The notes under the pieces are model-generated. The model saw only the letters and a list, made by a program, of their open reading frames with translations. It had not been told where the DNA came from and did no database searches. Made by a program: the position numbers and the translations under genes. Positions 56,093 through 64,000 of a stretch of 64,000 nucleotides of DNA are shown here, piece by piece. The stretch is from Actinoplanes couchii (GTDB lineage Bacteria > Actinomycetota > Actinomycetes > Mycobacteriales > Micromonosporaceae), in assembly GCF_016862075.1 (NCBI RefSeq), contig NZ_BOMG01000082.1, positions 62,001 to 126,000 of the forward strand. Direction: 5' to 3'. The first letter of the stretch is position 1; each line of letters opens with the position of its first letter.

Positions 56093-57012
56093 ATGCCCGC
56101 ACCGTTCATGCCCTGCTGTGTGGATTTCGGCCCAACGGCAATCTGAACACTTCCGACAACAGCGACGAACTCTCCAAGGAACTGGGCACGCGTTGTTTCG
56201 GATCGCGGGGATCCCGGAAGGGCAGGTGGGGCGACAAGATCCCGGTGTGGCACTCGAGCAACAGGTGCAGCAGCACCGGGCCGGACTTCGTCGAGACCTT
56301 CAGTTCACCCGGAGCGCGTCGGCGACGTCGTTCGAACAGTACGAACATCTGGACGCCTTTCCTCGATTCAAACGAGGTCATCAAGGAGCAGCGAGAACGC
56401 TTGCACCACCTTTCGAAGCCGGTCGCTCAATGGGCTCTCCGGCCGAGAGGGCGACCCTCCTGGGCCTGATGGAGGAAGCTGCGAAGGCCTTTCAGGCGCA
56501 GGACGACCTCGCCTTCGAGCTGATGGAGCACATGCCTTAGGAGGCTCTGCTCAAAGTCGACGTGACGATCGCCGAGCCTCAGGCTGGACGTCTTCCTCGA
56601 CTGCACGTCGCTCTCTCGTCGAAGTGGTCTCTACGTACCGACCGAGCGCAGGATTGCGTTTCGCAAGGCGCGAAGCTGGTGGCGCAACGCGGGGGCCGGA
56701 TGCCTCACTTCGGGTTGATCACCATGGAGACACGCCCGTCGATGCTGAAGATCCTCGGTGATGGGTCGGGCGCCGTCGATTGCGTCTATCACTTGAATCT
56801 TCCGGCGCTCGAAGGCGATGTCGGCGCTCTCGGTGCGTGGCAGTCGGCGGCCGGAGACGTGGTCGCCGATGCAGACGTTTCGACGGCTGGTGCGGCAGAG
56901 ACGGCTACGAGACTACGACGACCTGGTTTCCGAGGTGAAAGGCCTGCCCGCGCCGGGTCTCATGAGGCTGGCGGGTCATCCGATCGAGGGCTCGCGTGAC
57001 GCAGAGTGGTGA
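56093..57012 (+). pseudogene. Decayed NgoMIV-type Type II restriction endonuclease
   Basis: Remnant of an about 300-residue endonuclease that can be rebuilt by joining three frames. MPAPF starts at 56093; frame lost near 56105 (one C missing), then HALLCGFRPNGNLNTSDNSD; lost again near 56190 (one base missing), then IPEGQVGRQDPGVALEQQ, SFEQYEHLDAF; an in-frame TAG at 56538 (probably from GAG); then LLKVDVTI with the catalytic Asp and LSSKWSLRTDRAQD with the catalytic Lys, METRPSMLKILGDGSGAVDCVYHLNLPALE; a last shift near 56860 and TFRRLVRQRRLRDYDDLV to the stop. The SxKW..RxDRAQ and GxGxxDCVYH stretches match NgoMIV (GCCGGC cutter) as I remember it. Certainly inactive as written. Confidence 0.75.
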
Positions 57013-57415
57013 CGGTCTCCGCGACCTTGTCGGCCGCTTCTTCGATGGCTTCGTGCTCCCAGATCCGAAGAACGGTCCATCCGGCATCAGCGAGTCGAAG
57101 GTTGGTATTGGTGTCCCGCTGGCGGTTCGTGGCCACCTTCTCCGCCCAGAACGCCGCATTCGTCTTCGAGATGGTGTGATGTCGAGGGCAGCCGTGCCAG
57201 AAACAGCCGTCGAGGAAGACGGCCAGTCGGAGGCGGGGAAACAGCAGGTCTGCGGTGCGGCGGACCGCTTTGATCGGTCGCCGGTTCACGAAGTAGCGGA
57301 GGCCTCGGGCGTGAACGGCCCGCCGCAGCGCCAGTTCCGGTTTGGTGTCGCGTCCGGTGTTCGCCTGCATCGATTTCCGGACACCCGCGGACGACGCCCA
57401 AGATTTGTCGGACAT
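56960..57415 (-). CDS. vsr: Very short patch repair endonuclease (Vsr)
   Basis: 151-residue Vsr family endonuclease, which nicks at T:G mismatches left by deamination of 5-methylcytosine, so it accompanies C5 methyltransferases. Motifs: NTGRDTKPELALRRAVHARGLRY (DNA wedge and N-terminal helix), ADLLFPRLRLAVFLDGCFWHGCPRH (catalytic Asp, zinc Cys/His), LRLADAGWTVLRIWEHE. ATG at 57415 (preceded by GATGAGG) is chosen over 57424. Its 3' end overlaps the end of the decayed endonuclease gene by about 50 bp, tail to tail. Confidence 0.9.
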   Translation of the reverse strand: MSDKSWASSAGVRKSMQANTGRDTKPELALRRAVHARGLRYFVNRRPIKAVRRTADLLFPRLRLAVFLDGCFWHGCPRHHTISKTNAAFWAEKVATNRQRDTNTNLRLADAGWTVLRIWEHEAIEEAADKVAETVTTLRHASPRSDDPPAS

Positions 57416-57468
57416 GCACCTCATCTCACCCGGCCGGCGGTCTTGCTGTGGGACCAGGGGAGCCCTGT

Positions 57469-57651
57469 TCAATCGTCGCCGGCCTCCGCGGAATCCGTCG
57501 CCGGCGGGTTACGCCTGACATACCGTTCCAGGCATTGACGGATCACCTCGGACAGATTGTCGCCTCGCCGCTCCGCCGTAGCTTTCGCCGCGTCCCAGAC
57601 CCGGTCGGAGACACGAACGGTACGCCGGGGAGTCCTGGGCGCGTTCGGCAC
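57469..57651 (-). CDS. Ribbon-helix-helix DNA-binding protein
   Basis: 60-residue basic protein of the Arc/MetJ-type fold: RTVRVSDRVWDAAKATAERRGDNLSEVIRQCLERYV, a DNA-contacting beta strand then two helices. GTG 57651. An acidic tail (TDSAEAGDD) follows. It sits between vsr and a phage-type methyltransferase on the same strand. The palindrome TGTCATGACA occurs just before its start and twice before the methyltransferase, so it likely regulates itself and that gene. Confidence 0.82.
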   Translation of the reverse strand: MPNAPRTPRRTVRVSDRVWDAAKATAERRGDNLSEVIRQCLERYVRRNPPATDSAEAGDD

Positions 57652-57668: not shown

Positions 57669-57678
57669 TGTCATGACA
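57669..57678. promoter_or_regulatory. TGTCATGACA palindrome before the RHH gene
   Basis: Perfect 10-bp palindrome 18 bp upstream of the ribbon-helix-helix start, overlapping the methyltransferase stop codon. Same core as the two sites at 58415 and 58440. Confidence 0.55.
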
Positions 57679-58393
57679 TGCTGAGGCTTTCGGCGAGGCT
57701 TCTCGACAGGTGCTCGCCGATCCATTCGGTGTAAGCCGGTGGAATGGCCTCGGTCAGCTCCTCACGCTCCGAGGTCCAGTCGATGCCGAGCGCGTGCTGC
57801 ATTTCGATGATGCTGGCCTTGCCTCCGCCGTTCCCGTATGCGGCCACGTAGGGACCGTCCCGGTAGACGCCGTGTCGCATCCCCCGGACGTAACCGCGGT
57901 GCTTCGAATGCTTCGGTTGTTCGACCGTGAAGCCATGGATCTCGAAGTCACGGTGGCGCTGGACCCAGGGCGGTTCCCCGATCGGGAACATGTCCATGCA
58001 CAGCCGGAGGTCGGTGCGGATCAGGCCGCCGTGTCCGGTGGGCTGCTCGATGACGTAGGGGAGGCCGGTGGCGTCGAGGAGCTCGCGGGTCGCGGGAACC
58101 AGCTGCTCGTGCTGACGACCCCAACCCTTCGCCTTGTTCGTGCCGTTGGTGATGGTGCAGCCCGCCTGGCAGGGCGGCGAAGCGTGGACCAGGTCGAACC
58201 GGCCGTAGTGCTCCAGCTCGCCGTCGTTCTTCACCAGCTCTTCGAGCACGGCCAGCGCGTCCCGCTGTGCGAACTCGTCACCGCAGTAGTTCGGCCGGTT
58301 CTCGATGTCGATCCCGACCACCTCGAACCCGGCTCTCTGGTAGCCGCGTGCGGCTCCACCGGCACAGCAGTACAGGTCAAGAACTTTGGGCAT
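57671..58393 (-). CDS. Phage-type cytosine-C5 DNA methyltransferase
   Basis: 240-residue SAM-dependent methyltransferase as found in actinophages: motif I VLDLYCCAGGAARGYQRAGF, motif II-like VVGIDIENRPNY, catalytic motif IV HASPPCQAG with the nucleophilic Cys, motif VI YVIEQPTG (EQP replaces ENV), and a closing AIPPAYTEWIGEHL. Much shorter than Dcm-type enzymes, with only a minimal target-recognition segment. ATG 58393 has GAGGTG upstream. The promoter contains two palindromes that look like operators of the small ribbon-helix-helix protein. Probably of mobile-element origin. Confidence 0.85.
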   Translation of the reverse strand: MPKVLDLYCCAGGAARGYQRAGFEVVGIDIENRPNYCGDEFAQRDALAVLEELVKNDGELEHYGRFDLVHASPPCQAGCTITNGTNKAKGWGRQHEQLVPATRELLDATGLPYVIEQPTGHGGLIRTDLRLCMDMFPIGEPPWVQRHRDFEIHGFTVEQPKHSKHRGYVRGMRHGVYRDGPYVAAYGNGGGKASIIEMQHALGIDWTSEREELTEAIPPAYTEWIGEHLSRSLAESLSMS

Positions 58394-58647: not shown

Positions 58648-58653
58648 TAGCAT
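58648..58653 (+). promoter_or_regulatory. Putative -10 element of the C5 methyltransferase (leaderless)
   Basis: TAGCAT ends 7 nt before GTG 58661; there is no Shine-Dalgarno, so transcription would begin at or very near the start codon. The 190 bp to the left (58461-58650) show no gene. Confidence 0.4.
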
Positions 58654-58660
58654 TCCGTGG

Positions 58661-59755
58661 GTGAGTGACCGCCTGAGCATGATCGACTTGTTCGCGGGAT
58701 GCGGCGGTATGACCGTCGGGTTCAAGCGCGAAGGCTTCGATCCCGTCATGTCCGTCGAATGGGACCGCGCGGCCGCTGCCACTTACGCTGCGAACTTCGG
58801 TGAGGGTCATACCCACTGGGGTGACATCGAGAAGGTTCCCGACAGTGAGATCCCCCCTGCCCAGGTGATCATCGGAGGGCCGCCCTGCCAGGGCTTCTCC
58901 AACCTCGGCAGCAAGGATGTGGACGACCCGCGTAACACGTTGTGGAAGCAGTACTTACGCTTCGTCGTCAAGGCGCGCCCCGAGGTCTTCGTCATCGAGA
59001 ACGTCGAGCGGTTCTCCCGAGCCAGCGAGTTCCAGCTCCTGCTGGCCGAGGCCGATCACGGCATGATCAAGGACTACAAGCTCACACCCGGTGTACTCCT
59101 GGCTGCAGACTATGGCGTGGCGCAACGCCGGCCTCGTACGATCGTCATCGGATCCCGCATCGGTGAGATCCCGCTGCCGAAGCCGACCCACGCCAAGGTC
59201 CCGACCGGCGAGCTGAAGCCGTGGGAGACGGTGCGCAGCCGAATCGCGGGAATCGACCCGCACCCGACGACGACCGAGCTCCCCGACTCGACGACCGAAT
59301 ACTTCGGCGAGCGGATCCGGGGCGAGTTCAAGGGCACCGACATCCACTTCGGCCGCCAGCCGACCGCGATGTCCCTGGAACGCTACGACCACATCCCGCC
59401 GGGCGGCGGCCGCTTCAACCTCCCGGACCACCTGCTGTCCCGGTGCTGGCGCGAGAAGAAGACCGGTACGACCGACGTCATGGGCCGGATGCGTTGGGAC
59501 GCCCCGTCCCTGACGATCCGAACGGAGTTCTTCAAACCGGAGAAAGGCCAGTACCTGCACCCCCAGTGGGAAGAGGATCCGGAGCGCAGAGTCAACCGGG
59601 TCATCACCCATTACGAGGCGTCACTCCTGCAGGACTTCCCCAAGGAGTACCTGTGGTGCGGTTCCAAAACGGAGATCGCCAAACAGATCGGCAACGCGGT
59701 CCCGTCCGGTCTCGCCGCCGCCATCGCCAGGCACCTCAAGGGCTACCTGAACTGA
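58661..59755 (+). CDS. DNA (cytosine-5) methyltransferase
   Basis: 364-residue Dcm-type enzyme: motif I MIDLFAGCGGMTVGFKREGF, motif IV GGPPCQGFSNLG with catalytic Cys76, motif VI VFVIENVERF, motif VIII QRRPRTIVIG, a target-recognition domain (about 190-290), motifs IX-X YLWCGSKTEIAKQIGNAVPSGLAAAIA. All catalytic motifs intact. It may be the old partner of the decayed NgoMIV-type nuclease upstream, or belong with the ATPase-helicase 80 bp downstream on the same strand, or both. GTG 58661 appears to be read from a leaderless message. Confidence 0.92.
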   Translation: MSDRLSMIDLFAGCGGMTVGFKREGFDPVMSVEWDRAAAATYAANFGEGHTHWGDIEKVPDSEIPPAQVIIGGPPCQGFSNLGSKDVDDPRNTLWKQYLRFVVKARPEVFVIENVERFSRASEFQLLLAEADHGMIKDYKLTPGVLLAADYGVAQRRPRTIVIGSRIGEIPLPKPTHAKVPTGELKPWETVRSRIAGIDPHPTTTELPDSTTEYFGERIRGEFKGTDIHFGRQPTAMSLERYDHIPPGGGRFNLPDHLLSRCWREKKTGTTDVMGRMRWDAPSLTIRTEFFKPEKGQYLHPQWEEDPERRVNRVITHYEASLLQDFPKEYLWCGSKTEIAKQIGNAVPSGLAAAIARHLKGYLN

Positions 59756-59825
59756 GTTCCGGTCGGAGCCTGCGCTGCAGCCAGGCTCGACACAGTCCGG
59801 GAACATCGATCGGGGCAGGCGTGGC

Positions 59826-59831
59826 GATAAT
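59826..59831 (+). promoter_or_regulatory. Putative -10 element of the ATPase-helicase gene (leaderless)
   Basis: GATAAT ends 6 nt before GTG 59838 and no Shine-Dalgarno is present. Same arrangement as at the methyltransferase upstream. Confidence 0.45.
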
Positions 59832-59837
59832 GGTTCC

Positions 59838-62800
59838 GTGACAGGCTTCACCTCATGGGATGAACCGGATGCGGGTCTCAGGGCCTGGATCGAGGCGCAA
59901 CGGGCCAGGATGCTGGCGGCATATGTAGCCGACCCGGCGCTGGTACGAGAGCATGCCGCGCAGGAGGACAGTTTCCGGACCGGCGGCTATTCGCAGCGGC
60001 AGGTACTCGAACTCGTGCAGAACGCAGCCGACGCCCTACGGCGTTCGCATCATCGTGGCCGCGTGGAGGTCGCCATCGTCGGCGACATGCTGTACTGCGC
60101 GAACGAGGGGGCTCCATTCACCCGGGAAGGGCTCGAGGCGGTCACCCACGCCTATCTCAGCGACAAACGCGGGGATGACATCGGCCGGTTCGGCCTCGGG
60201 TTCAAATCGATTCTGGGCGTCACCGACGCACCTTTGGTGCTAAGTCGTTCGGTGTCCTTCTCGTTCAGTGCCCAGAGCAGTCGACAGGTTCTTGCAGAGA
60301 TCGCTCCTACGGCGCGGAGATATCCCGTGCTGCGGTTACCCGCGCTCGTCGACGCGACTGCCGAGATGGATGCCGATCCGGTTCTGGCCGAATTCGGCTC
60401 GTGGGCTCAGACCATCGTGCGGTTGCCGTTGGTCGGTGATGTCGACCGCCTGATCGAGGGCATGCGCTCCTTCCCGCGCGAGTTCATGCTGTTCGCACCC
60501 TTCGTGTCGAAGCTGGCGATCAGGCTCGCGGATGACGGAGCCTTCGAGTTCGGCTGCGAGCAACTCGACGATCATCGTTATCGGTTGACGGGAGTCGATG
60601 GAATTCCCTCGGATTGGATGGTGTGGCATCGCGGGTATCGTCCGTCAGAGGAGGCCTTGGCTGAGGTCAGCGAAACGACCCGTCGTCCCGAGGTGACGTT
60701 GTCGTACGCTGCTCCGCTTGACGACACGCAACAGTTGGGTCGCTTCTGGGCCTATTTCCCACTGCTCGACACCACATCGGCTCGGGGCGTCTTCAACGCT
60801 CCTTGGCAGGTGACCGACGACCGCACCAACCTGCTGCCCGGACGCTTCAACGACGAGTTGCTCGAGGTGGCGGCCGATCTGCTGGTGAGTTCGCTGCCAT
60901 ACCTGAATTCGGCCGAGGACCCGGCTCGGCACTTCGACTACATGCCTGCCCGTGGTCGTGAGACGGACAACTTCGGTGACCACCGCCTGACCGAGTTGGT
61001 CCCCGTGGCTGCCGCCGCGACGGCATGTGTGCCCGATGCCGCGGGAGTGCTGCGGTCACCTGCCTACCTGACCTATCCGAACACCGACCTCCATCTGGAG
61101 TACGCGGGAGTGAAGGCCTGGTCCGATGCGCCGGGTCGGCCGCACCGAAGCCCACACCCCACCTGCTATCGGACGCCGACCCGTCGAGCCCGAATGCGGC
61201 GTCTGGTCCGAGGTGACCTGTCGCAGCCGGCATCCAACGAAATAGATGCATCGCAGTGGCTCGAACACCTGGTCAGCGACGCGAGCGACGAACAGTGTCG
61301 GGCTGCGCTACGGGTCCTGTTCACAGTCGGCGATGACGCACTGCGGCGCGAGCTACGCCGAGCCGCAGTCATTCCCGACAGCGCTGGCACACTGGCGCGC
61401 CTGGACGCGGTCCGCGACATCTTCCTTCACGGCGACCGATTGAGTGCCTCTGTAGGGATTCGGCTGGTCCGGCACTCGTTCGTAGCACTGCCGGAGGTGG
61501 AGGACCAGCTACGGACGCTCGGCTTCACCGACGTCGATCCGAGACTGGAGCTCCGCCGACTATCCGAGATGGCCACGGGCCGTTGGAGCGCACCGGACTG
61601 GCACGGGTTCTGGGACCTGGTGGGAAGGATCAACAACCACGACGCACGGGAGATTCTCACCGAGCACGTCGCCCGGGGAGCCGCATTGAAGGTCCTATGC
61701 CGCGATGGGAGCTGGCAGCACGTCAGCTATACGGTCGTGCCGGGCCTTGTCGACCCGATCGACGAGTCGGTGGCGATCGACTCGGAATTCCATCGTGACC
61801 ACCTGAACCTGCTACGTGCGATCGGCGTGACGATGCTGCCGGTCGTCTCGGCCGTAGTAGCCCAGGATCCCACCCAACTGGAGTATCGACGACTACAGCG
61901 GGTGCGGTTCGTCGAGGATCTAGGCGTTCCACACCGAGACAGGGGCGAGATCGACTTCGTGGAACGTGAAGGTCTCGGACCGCTTCACGTCCTGCGCAGG
62001 TTTGCCGACTCGGGCGACGAGCAGGCTCGGATGACATGGACCAGAGAGCTTCTAGGGTCTGAGGTTCCAGAGGTATGGACCCTGAATCACCCGAATCCCA
62101 AGAGGTTCCCCGCCTATCGAGTGACAGCCCCTCACCTATGGGCGTCGCAGACCTATGGACTGCTCGACACCGCTTGGGGTCCGCGCCAGCCTCACCGTTC
62201 TCTGAATCCCGGCATGAGCCGTATGGCACCGCTCATGCCGGTGGCGGTGTGGGCTGTCGCTGCGAAGCTGGAGACCATCGCGGATCTGAAGGCCGTCCCC
62301 GCCGACATGTGGCGGGAGTTCCTGGATCGCATCCCGACCGGTGGCGATCCCCATCTGCTCGGCGATCTGATCTCCGTGGCTTCCCGTGGCCTTCCGCCCG
62401 ACGAGAAGCCGACAGCCGTGCCGGCGGTTCGTGGCATCGGCTACGACAGCGTGGCGCCCACCGAGTTGCTGATCGCCGTCACTGAGCAGGAGATCCGGAC
62501 CCTGGTCGAGCTGAACCTGCCCTTCGTCGCGGTCGAGGACGAGGGGAGCGTCGAGAGCCTTCATACCGTCTGGGGCTGCCGGGCGGCATCAGGGTTCCTC
62601 CGTGTCGAGATCGTGCCGGAGGAACCCGGTGAGGCCGTCGCCCTACTCGACCGGTTCCGGCGACTGCGGGACTACGCCCGTGGTGCCCTCGACGACTTCG
62701 TACTGATCGCTTGCTCCTCGGTCAGCCGTGTCGTGACCCTGTCCGAGGGGATGGAGTCGCATCCTGAGAGATTCGCCGTCGACAGACGTGCCGTCTACTT

Positions 62801-64000
62801 CGAGCGCATCCTCGACGCGGATCAGCTGCTCGCTGAGATCTCTGGTCATTTCTCCCTGCACCTCAGCGACGCAGACATCCTGCTGGTGCTGCAGGAAGCG
62901 GAGAGTGAACGTGTTCAGACCGCGATCGCACAGGCCCGAGCACTGACCGACCCGGCCGACAAGCTGCTGGCCCTGCTTCCTGTGTCGGTATTGGAGGCGG
63001 CTCTCCCCTCGGGTCTGTTGAGCACCATACGAGCTTCGTCCGCGGACACCGGAGACCGAGGCCTCGCCGAACTGGTCCTGCATGTCCACGGCCATAACGC
63101 GCTGCATCGCCTACGCCGCGACCTCGCGGACAACGGCTTCGACGTACCGGACACGTGGGCGGGCTCAGGCCCCGCTATCGCCTTCGTCCGCCGGTTGGGA
63201 TTTCCCGCCGAGTTCGCCGGCGAACGTGGCCGACAACTGGACTCTGACGTCACGGTGCTCGGTCCTCCCGATCTCAAGCCGTTGCATCCGTATCAACGCG
63301 AGTTGGCCGTCCAGATTCGGCGCCTGGTGTGTACCGCCGCCGAACCCGAGCGTGCACTGCTCTTCCTGCCGACCGGCGCGGGCAAGACGCGAGTGACGGT
63401 GGAGGCACTCGTGGAGACGATCCGGGCACGGGAACTCGGAGGACCCGTGCTCTGGATCGCTCAGAGCGAGGAGCTGTGCGAACAGGCCGTTCAGTCCTGG
63501 ATCACGGTGTGGAGACTGCTCGGCAATCGTCCGCTGCGTCTGTGCCGGCTCTGGGGTGACAACGAGATCACATCCGGTGAATCGGACGCCGAAGTCATCG
63601 TGGCGACCGACGCCAAACTCGATCGCATCCGTGCCCGTTCCGACTACGACTGGTTGCTCACCGCGGCTGCCGTCGTCGTCGACGAGGCTCACGGTGCCAC
63701 AGCGCCCGGTATCACCGCGACACTGCAGTGGCTCGGGATCAACTCCGGGGAGACCGCCCGCCCGTTACTCGGCCTCACCGCGACGCCGTTCCACGGAAAC
63801 GGCAAGACCTCCAACGAGGTGCTGGCTGCGTTGTTCGACAATAGACGCCTCAACGTGCTGGGTGAGGATCCCTACGGCGAATTGCAACGGCTCGGTGTCC
63901 TGGCCGAGGTCCGGCACCGGGTCCTGCCGGGCTCGTCGTACTCCTTCGATGTATCCGAACGGGAGCACATCACGAGGTACGACGACGTTCCGAACACGGT
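59838..64000 (+). CDS. Sacsin/Hsp90-like ATPase fused to DEAH helicase (3' end outside window)
   Basis: At least 1387 residues, frame open without a stop to the window end. N-terminus: GHKL/Hsp90-type nucleotide site with N box LELVQNAADAL (Asn about residue 62) and glycine-rich GDDIGRFGLGFKSILG (about 110-125), as in sacsin-type ATPases. A long middle part (about 300-1160) is of unknown fold. C-terminal SF2 helicase: Walker A LPTGAGKTRVT (Lys about 1183), VVVDEAHG (about 1281-1287), LTATPFHG. Motifs IV-VI and any nuclease lie beyond the window. Codon use is more AT-ending than in neighbouring housekeeping genes. Adjacent to a C5 methyltransferase, so a restriction-like, methylation-guided defence role is likely by inference. 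Confidence 0.85.
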   Translation, partial: MTGFTSWDEPDAGLRAWIEAQRARMLAAYVADPALVREHAAQEDSFRTGGYSQRQVLELVQNAADALRRSHHRGRVEVAIVGDMLYCANEGAPFTREGLEAVTHAYLSDKRGDDIGRFGLGFKSILGVTDAPLVLSRSVSFSFSAQSSRQVLAEIAPTARRYPVLRLPALVDATAEMDADPVLAEFGSWAQTIVRLPLVGDVDRLIEGMRSFPREFMLFAPFVSKLAIRLADDGAFEFGCEQLDDHRYRLTGVDGIPSDWMVWHRGYRPSEEALAEVSETTRRPEVTLSYAAPLDDTQQLGRFWAYFPLLDTTSARGVFNAPWQVTDDRTNLLPGRFNDELLEVAADLLVSSLPYLNSAEDPARHFDYMPARGRETDNFGDHRLTELVPVAAAATACVPDAAGVLRSPAYLTYPNTDLHLEYAGVKAWSDAPGRPHRSPHPTCYRTPTRRARMRRLVRGDLSQPASNEIDASQWLEHLVSDASDEQCRAALRVLFTVGDDALRRELRRAAVIPDSAGTLARLDAVRDIFLHGDRLSASVGIRLVRHSFVALPEVEDQLRTLGFTDVDPRLELRRLSEMATGRWSAPDWHGFWDLVGRINNHDAREILTEHVARGAALKVLCRDGSWQHVSYTVVPGLVDPIDESVAIDSEFHRDHLNLLRAIGVTMLPVVSAVVAQDPTQLEYRRLQRVRFVEDLGVPHRDRGEIDFVEREGLGPLHVLRRFADSGDEQARMTWTRELLGSEVPEVWTLNHPNPKRFPAYRVTAPHLWASQTYGLLDTAWGPRQPHRSLNPGMSRMAPLMPVAVWAVAAKLETIADLKAVPADMWREFLDRIPTGGDPHLLGDLISVASRGLPPDEKPTAVPAVRGIGYDSVAPTELLIAVTEQEIRTLVELNLPFVAVEDEGSVESLHTVWGCRAASGFLRVEIVPEEPGEAVALLDRFRRLRDYARGALDDFVLIACSSVSRVVTLSEGMESHPERFAVDRRAVYFERILDADQLLAEISGHFSLHLSDADILLVLQEAESERVQTAIAQARALTDPADKLLALLPVSVLEAALPSGLLSTIRASSADTGDRGLAELVLHVHGHNALHRLRRDLADNGFDVPDTWAGSGPAIAFVRRLGFPAEFAGERGRQLDSDVTVLGPPDLKPLHPYQRELAVQIRRLVCTAAEPERALLFLPTGAGKTRVTVEALVETIRARELGGPVLWIAQSEELCEQAVQSWITVWRLLGNRPLRLCRLWGDNEITSGESDAEVIVATDAKLDRIRARSDYDWLLTAAAVVVDEAHGATAPGITATLQWLGINSGETARPLLGLTATPFHGNGKTSNEVLAALFDNRRLNVLGEDPYGELQRLGVLAEVRHRVLPGSSYSFDVSEREHITRYDDVPNT

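Follow-up and report, generated by a model that had tools for sequence, protein, structure and literature searches.

A giant GHKL ATPase-helicase beside a C5 methyltransferase in Actinoplanes couchii probably belongs to a DISARM-related defense system

Introduction

DISARM systems are recognized by the helicase DrmA, the DUF1998/MZB protein DrmB, the PLD nuclease DrmC, an operon-linked DNA methyltransferase and a class gene, DrmD or DrmE. In the Serratia system, 5-methylcytosine lowers the ATPase activity of DrmAB, and both the step from DrmAB loading to destruction and the roles of the auxiliary subunits are given as an open question (PMC9142583). This study concerns a stretch of 64,000 nucleotides of Actinoplanes couchii (contig NZ_BOMG01000082.1, positions 62,001 to 126,000; hereafter the window), at the end of which a C5 DNA methyltransferase (C5MT) is followed by a giant protein that joins a GHKL ATPase to a superfamily 2 (SF2) helicase. 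The original prediction was that these two genes form a methylation-discriminating anti-phage system, in which the giant would detect or degrade DNA lacking the methyl mark. The analysis instead points, with good confidence, to the giant being the GHKL-helicase of a DISARM-related defense system with a core of GHKL-helicase, superfamily 1 (SF1) helicase, DrmA and DrmB, which probably works like DISARM; gene content, usual gene order, co-divergence, intact motifs and the GHKL-S5 fold are the observations behind this assignment.

According to the accessible part of PMC12458937, ARMADA and Druantia likewise have a YprA-family helicase at their center, with an SF1 helicase partner in ARMADA II, and ARMADA shares a PglX-like methylase and a BrxHII-like helicase with DISARM class 1, its zinc-binding module staying fused to the helicase; a search of the text for the terms Hsp90, GHKL, sacsin and cytosine gave no hit. 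MORC and paraMORC GHKL ATPases accompany SF2 helicases in restriction-modification (R-M) operons, where, in the accessible text of PMC2292703, ATPase and helicase are separate genes, whereas they are fused here. No description of a GHKL-helicase DISARM-like system was found in the open-access papers searched, which leave out most subscription papers, so such a system is possibly known elsewhere; the one paper found to combine DISARM, GHKL and phage (PMC13373217) has regulators as its subject, as far as its accessible part goes.

Domain architecture of the GHKL-helicase

Positions marked W are in window numbering, continued past 64000 along the same contig (C82:126466 = W64466). The two adjacent genes and the parts of the giant are as follows.

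58661..59755, plus strand: C5 DNA methyltransferase, 364 aa, GTG start; Pfam DNA_methylase PF00145 7e-57 over residues 6-360; PADLOC DruM/MTase_II
59838..W64466 (the window holds it up to 64000), plus strand: GHKL-helicase A (copy A), 1542 aa, protein P0001
59925..60926, plus strand: GHKL ATPase and S5 transducer module of helicase A, about residues 30-363
60978..63251, plus strand: middle region of helicase A, residues 381-1138, with a confident structure model and alignable across the family
63279..about W64403 (beyond the window), plus strand: RadD-like SF2 helicase domain of helicase A, residues ~1148-1522

The methyltransferase is intact, as had been claimed, the originally given start at 58648 lying 13 bases upstream of its first codon, and it is separated from helicase A on the same strand by 82 bases. 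The open reading frame (ORF) of helicase A has 1387 aa inside the window, is open at the window end and runs without an internal stop to W64466. The sacsin/Hsp90-like ATP site proposed for its N-terminus is borne out by the NCBIfam model P_loop_sacsin (1e-19, above its cut-off; Pfam SACS 1.5e-6, below cut-off) and by the GHKL ATP motifs, namely the E58-QN-D65 box (58-65) and DIGRFGLG (114-121). The proposed C-terminal SF2 helicase is likewise present, with matches to ResIII (3e-14) and Helicase_C (4e-14) and SF2 motifs across residues 1178-1506 (PTGAGKT 1178, DEAH 1282, TATPF 1314, QGFDAPG 1474, QMVGRALRG 1498). The best NCBIfam helicase model is RadD (4e-25, which is far below the cut-off of that model), and the closest solved structure to the helicase end is RadD 6jde (6e-35, family profile).

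In a structure model of residues 1-1145, about residues 30-363 fold as a GHKL+S5 module, and this fold with its intact ATP motifs places the protein among the GHKL-S5 ATPases (Hsp90/TopoVI-B/MORC). The middle of the protein, originally described as roughly 860 residues without a recognizable fold, is therefore narrowed to about residues 381-1138 (~760 residues). This remainder was predicted at a pLDDT of 90.2 and is conserved and alignable across the family, and the lack of a recognizable fold stands to the extent that no good match to it was found among solved structures in the PDB or viral structure models.

ATPase and helicase had been said to be usually separate proteins. Relatives of the two halves of helicase A are indeed found apart in other defense loci, whereas in the GHKL-helicase family the single chain is the rule and not a peculiarity of this locus. 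On an Arthrobacter plasmid, an MZA-like locus has a C5MT directly followed by a 1096-aa relative of residues 26-673 that has no helicase. The N-terminus also resembles TmtA of Tiamat (PADLOC, best match 2.4e-45 over residues 15-451), but that match covers only profile positions 10-428 of 1538, so the protein is not a full-length TmtA; among the matches listed, no TmtA stretch passes residue 566, and at the helicase end the matches are to PbeA and other helicase models. The sacsin-like GHKL module is thus linked across MZA-like, Tiamat-like and DISARM-like systems, and MZA and DISARM had been rightly chosen as comparisons. In Phytohabitans flavus (L069:13315-14637) gene calling gave the helicase end an ORF of its own, 440 aa long, reflecting a split or a frameshift.

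A conserved core with SF1 helicase, DrmA and DrmB

Reading past base 64000, as had been recommended in the search for the gene end and a nuclease, revealed both the stop of helicase A and a complete set of genes facing it.

W73319-78031, minus strand: GHKL-helicase B, 1570 aa, 37% identical to helicase A over nearly the full length
W71802-73322, minus strand: NERD-nuclease/SF1 helicase; NERD PF08378 8e-12
W68641-71805, minus strand: DrmA; NF038325 3e-240, 800 bits (cut-off 950); PADLOC DrmA 5e-196; PDB DrmA 7s9v 2.5e-136
W66852-68690, minus strand: DrmB; NF038324 418 bits (cut-off 240)

Helicase B, the NERD-helicase, DrmA and DrmB form a single minus-strand run, opposite in strand to helicase A, in the ~15 kb after it, and a NaeI endonuclease gene lies beyond. 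Among 298 genomes of the order, the giant was matched at 1e-60 in 17 (16 with the GHKL part; G289 with the helicase end only), and helicase B was matched in 5 of 396 genomes of the phylum (G421 with the helicase end only), the own genome being included in both counts. In this analysis the GHKL-helicase family was found mainly in Actinomycetota. This patchy distribution and the defense-gene neighbors agree with the defense role originally proposed; a housekeeping context, which would have counted against it, was seen in none of the regions looked at.

Gene content was compared across 98 regions, comprising 80 named loci (the best 80 of 404 confirmed candidates, 37 of them from Streptomyces), the 17 order-search regions and the own region. 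With genes called heuristically and grouped by single linkage, which may merge families (c4), cluster members were present for DrmA in 92 regions, DrmB in 87, C5MT in 80, Vsr in 42, a UvrD/GajB-like SF1 helicase in 42, the NERD-helicase in 36 and NaeI in 13. The six regions without a DrmA cluster member were G067 (DrmA 29 kb off), L095 (DrmA further along), G289, G221b, L113 and L141. Around the 96 GHKL-helicases longer than 1400 aa, DrmA lies at most four genes downstream in 92 cases, DrmA and DrmB are both within five genes in 85, and a C5MT is within nine genes in 76, so the methyltransferase does co-occur elsewhere as had been asked; copy A is counted in all three figures, though its DrmA and DrmB are on the opposite strand. 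The usual order is a same-strand run of GHKL-helicase, SF1 helicase, DrmA and DrmB (68/96), with 16 further cases of DrmA-DrmB without a called SF1 helicase and 12, copy A included, in which the order is different or cut. The core SF1 helicase either has an N-terminal NERD nuclease, as here, or is UvrD/GajB-like. In the NERD-helicase, E19, D55, E68-x-K70 and the Walker motifs are conserved in at least 92% of the 36 members.

The association was also examined from the side of DrmA, which was matched (1e-50) in 44 of the 298 order genomes, including all 16 with the GHKL part (hypergeometric 3.4e-15). Since 28 genomes have DrmA without the giant, DrmA does not need it. Loci were fetched for 12 of these 28, and seven keep the NERD-helicase; in four of the seven (L184, L185, L187, L189) genes of ~350 and ~510 aa stand before the NERD-helicase in the place of the giant, and for the two pairs tested neither Pfam nor PADLOC gave a match. 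As side observations, NaeI, C5MT and Vsr come next after the giant-less NERD-DrmAB locus L185, and a separate 437-aa HATPase_c_3 ATPase (L182:14878-16191) lies with Vsr and C5MT by a NERD-DrmA-DrmB operon that lacks the giant.

Co-divergence was expressed as Spearman correlations across loci (in brackets the highest of 200 permutations and the number of loci). The GHKL-helicase correlates at 0.88 with DrmA (0.09, n=90), 0.87 with DrmB (0.06, n=85), 0.90 with the NERD-helicase (0.34, n=34) and 0.93 with the SF1 helicase of cluster c5 (0.30, n=41), compared with 0.89 for DrmA and DrmB themselves (0.07, n=86). The divergence of the giant therefore follows DrmA, DrmB and the SF1 helicase as closely as DrmA follows DrmB. 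At the same loci, the values for C5MT (0.28; 0.12, n=79), Vsr (0.135; 0.133, n=40) and NaeI (0.07; 0.52, n=13) are weak and thus serve as an internal control.

Because its relatives adjoin the core helicase pair of DISARM, the giant is read as part of a DISARM-like system and not as a new two-gene one. In favor of a self-contained pair of methyltransferase and helicase A, the two genes lie side by side on the same strand, 82 bases apart, copy A is intact, and the Arthrobacter locus pairs a C5MT with a helicase-less relative; for all eight other members of the clade of copy A, however, the region contains DrmA and DrmB (one contig accounts for two of the eight), the GHKL-C5MT correlation is weak, and the methyltransferase goes with NaeI. 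We consider this two-gene explanation very unlikely. What stands of the original unit is its link to C5 methylation; the constant partners are the SF1 helicase, DrmA and DrmB (0.87-0.93), and the methyltransferase is exchangeable (0.28).

The methyltransferase and the NaeI/Vsr cassette

The endonuclease genes and the further methylase gene of the island are the following.

56562..56999, plus strand: NgoMIV-type restriction endonuclease, C-terminal fragment, 145 aa; PF09015 6e-18, profile positions 164-245 of 275
56960..57472, minus strand: Vsr-type endonuclease, 170 aa; PF03852 1.3e-16; PADLOC Vsr 1.6e-13
57671-58393, minus strand: phage-type C5 DNA methylase, 240 aa, between Vsr and the main methyltransferase; PHROG 363, 1.7e-33
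W78488-79711, minus strand: NaeI endonuclease, full length; PF09126 5.8e-114; PDB 1ev7 9e-75

Judged by its sequence, the methyltransferase groups with those that accompany NaeI endonucleases. NaeI is found within four genes of 10 of the 16 cluster members that share at least 55% identity with it, the protein itself counted, compared with 1 of the 87 others with a BLAST match. NaeI and NgoMIV both recognize GCCGGC; GCCGGC is therefore the predicted target and mark of the methyltransferase, and the island would hold, for one site, a broken endonuclease (the NgoMIV-type fragment, a remnant at the island edge) and an intact one (NaeI).

These genes raise the possibility, which we hold to be on the doubtful side, that the methyltransferase is M.NaeI, belonging with Vsr and NaeI to a type II R-M system that sits in a defense island by chance, and that the DISARM-like core makes no use of its mark. 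The NaeI statistics and the full-length NaeI at W78488 speak for it, and the island resembles such a system in its NaeI endonuclease, Vsr and M.NaeI-like methyltransferase. It differs in that the endonuclease and methyltransferase genes are nine gene calls and 18.7 kb apart, with DISARM-like genes between them. Furthermore, NaeI occurs in only 13 of the 98 regions, whereas C5MTs stand by 76 of the 96 GHKL-helicases, and a C5MT match lies within ~18 kb of the GHKL-helicase in 15 of 16 genomes (partial in G262; the exception is G020). Beside the core, a C5MT that often comes with Vsr and in some cases with NaeI forms an exchangeable cassette, probably for self-marking; the correlation of 0.28, above its permutations, indicates that this cassette is not wholly independent of the core.

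The solitary GHKL-helicase

Copy A lies outside the minus-strand operon, its stop only 25 bases from a 285-aa gene. After its orthologs in L065, L066, L132, G225 and G013 come NERD-helicase, DrmA, DrmB and then the 285-aa gene (one gene further in G225), and its branch is longer than that of its sister in L065 (0.36 vs. 0.19). Together with the endonuclease fragment at W56562, a sign of decay in the own island, these observations make it conceivable, though not probable, that copy A is what remains of another DISARM-like operon, which would have lost its NERD-helicase, DrmA and DrmB, and that this relic GHKL-helicase is non-functional. The sequence of copy A argues otherwise, as it is a full-length ORF with all checked motifs kept and no clear excess of changes, departing from clade-invariant columns at 26 of 491 (6 to 59 in the seven other members tested) and from family-wide columns at 1 of 115. 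The layout also recurs in Actinoplanes xinjiangensis, which speaks against a simple relic: a full operon there faces a solitary GHKL-helicase, of a different clade from copy A, beside the 285-aa gene, with a NaeI/C5MT/Vsr cassette between them. In Paractinoplanes aksuensis both GHKL-helicase types are kept, as two full operons (L083, L132). Copy A, which sits with the NaeI-type methyltransferase, would probably work with the DrmAB of the facing full set B.

Comparison with DISARM

The likeness of this locus to DISARM (PMC9142583) lies in the adjacent DrmA and DrmB of one operon and in the nearby DNA methyltransferase, which is operon-linked in DISARM and here stands at W58661, outside the DrmAB operon. 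Across the 98 regions, seven have a DrmD-like gene (one representative tested) and eight have a gene for whose representative the top match is a type IIG enzyme, followed by DrmMI; these genes strengthen the tie to DISARM. No DrmD or DrmE was among the PADLOC matches listed for eight proteins of the own island. The differences are that no DrmC was found, that the operon includes a GHKL-helicase and, in most cases, an SF1 helicase, and that DrmA scores below the NCBIfam cut-off. With DrmA and DrmB present and DrmC not found with one PLD model, the locus is not filed as canonical DISARM. Separately, in L073, L077, L078, L080 and L137 (Agromyces, Cryobacterium, Microbacterium twice, Planococcus sp.), DrmD-like and type IIG/DrmMI-like genes face the GHKL-helicase, DrmA and DrmB, and no SF1 helicase was called.

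Several points weigh against placing the giant in a DISARM-related system. The own DrmA reaches 800 of the 950 bits set by NCBIfam for DISARM, and PLDc_2 (PF13091), the sole PLD model tried, gave no match on the island's contig in a search of 16 genomes, the matches nearest any GHKL-helicase being 33 kb (G122) and 49 kb (G293) away. In the DrmD loci, the DrmMI-like gene fits the type IIG model better than DrmMI, and no nuclease domain was matched in the one representative of the UvrD-type SF1 helicase. The 98 regions include close relatives, with two contigs counted twice (L067 = G013, L142 = G293), and the permutations keep linkage, so that shared ancestry of linked genes stays in the correlations. 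The C5MT correlation is weak yet exceeds its permutations, and since the methyltransferase tracks NaeI, the core may not read its mark. Finally, copy A has no NERD-helicase, DrmA or DrmB of its own, so it may be a relic.

Proposed mechanism

In a DISARM-related system of this composition, the methyltransferase would mark host DNA and DrmAB would load onto incoming DNA that is unmarked or has a 5'-overhang. The GHKL-S5 module could then shut as an ATP-gated clamp, with the fused RadD-like motor traveling along the DNA; in the NERD branch, the NERD-helicase would make the cut in place of the DrmC of DISARM. Such a system couples DrmAB with an Hsp90-like clamp, another SF2 motor and an SF1 helicase, with a nuclease in one branch, and swaps its methyltransferase freely. 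Given this tight core and swapped methyltransferase, gene deletions should be able to tell apart what clamp, motor, cutter and self-mark each do. More tentatively, these loci might form a separate class of DISARM-like immunity in which the chain of GHKL clamp, ~760-residue domain and RadD-like motor is obligate and in which some genomes carry a second, solitary GHKL-helicase that, partnered with the methyltransferase cassette, re-targets the shared DrmAB as a heteromeric GHKL pair.

Other features of the island

The island is flanked by a transporter gene (W54556-56253) and a SAICAR synthetase gene (W79888-80727). Its remaining genes are the following.

W64492-65349, minus strand: 285-aa protein; its cluster is present in 13 of the 98 regions
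W65386-66675, minus strand: Ser/Thr kinase; PF00069 2e-38; PADLOC PD-T4-6 6e-86
W78028-78495, minus strand: 155-aa ORF

In the clustering over the 98 regions, the kinase belongs to no conserved cluster. Additionally, many Streptomyces copies of the GHKL-helicase adjoin a divergent three-gene module of an HTH protein, a middle gene and a DUF6339 protein, the first and last of which are PDC-M33-like according to PADLOC; examples of the families are L128:6908-9058, L111:5909-6904 and L129:5368-6249.

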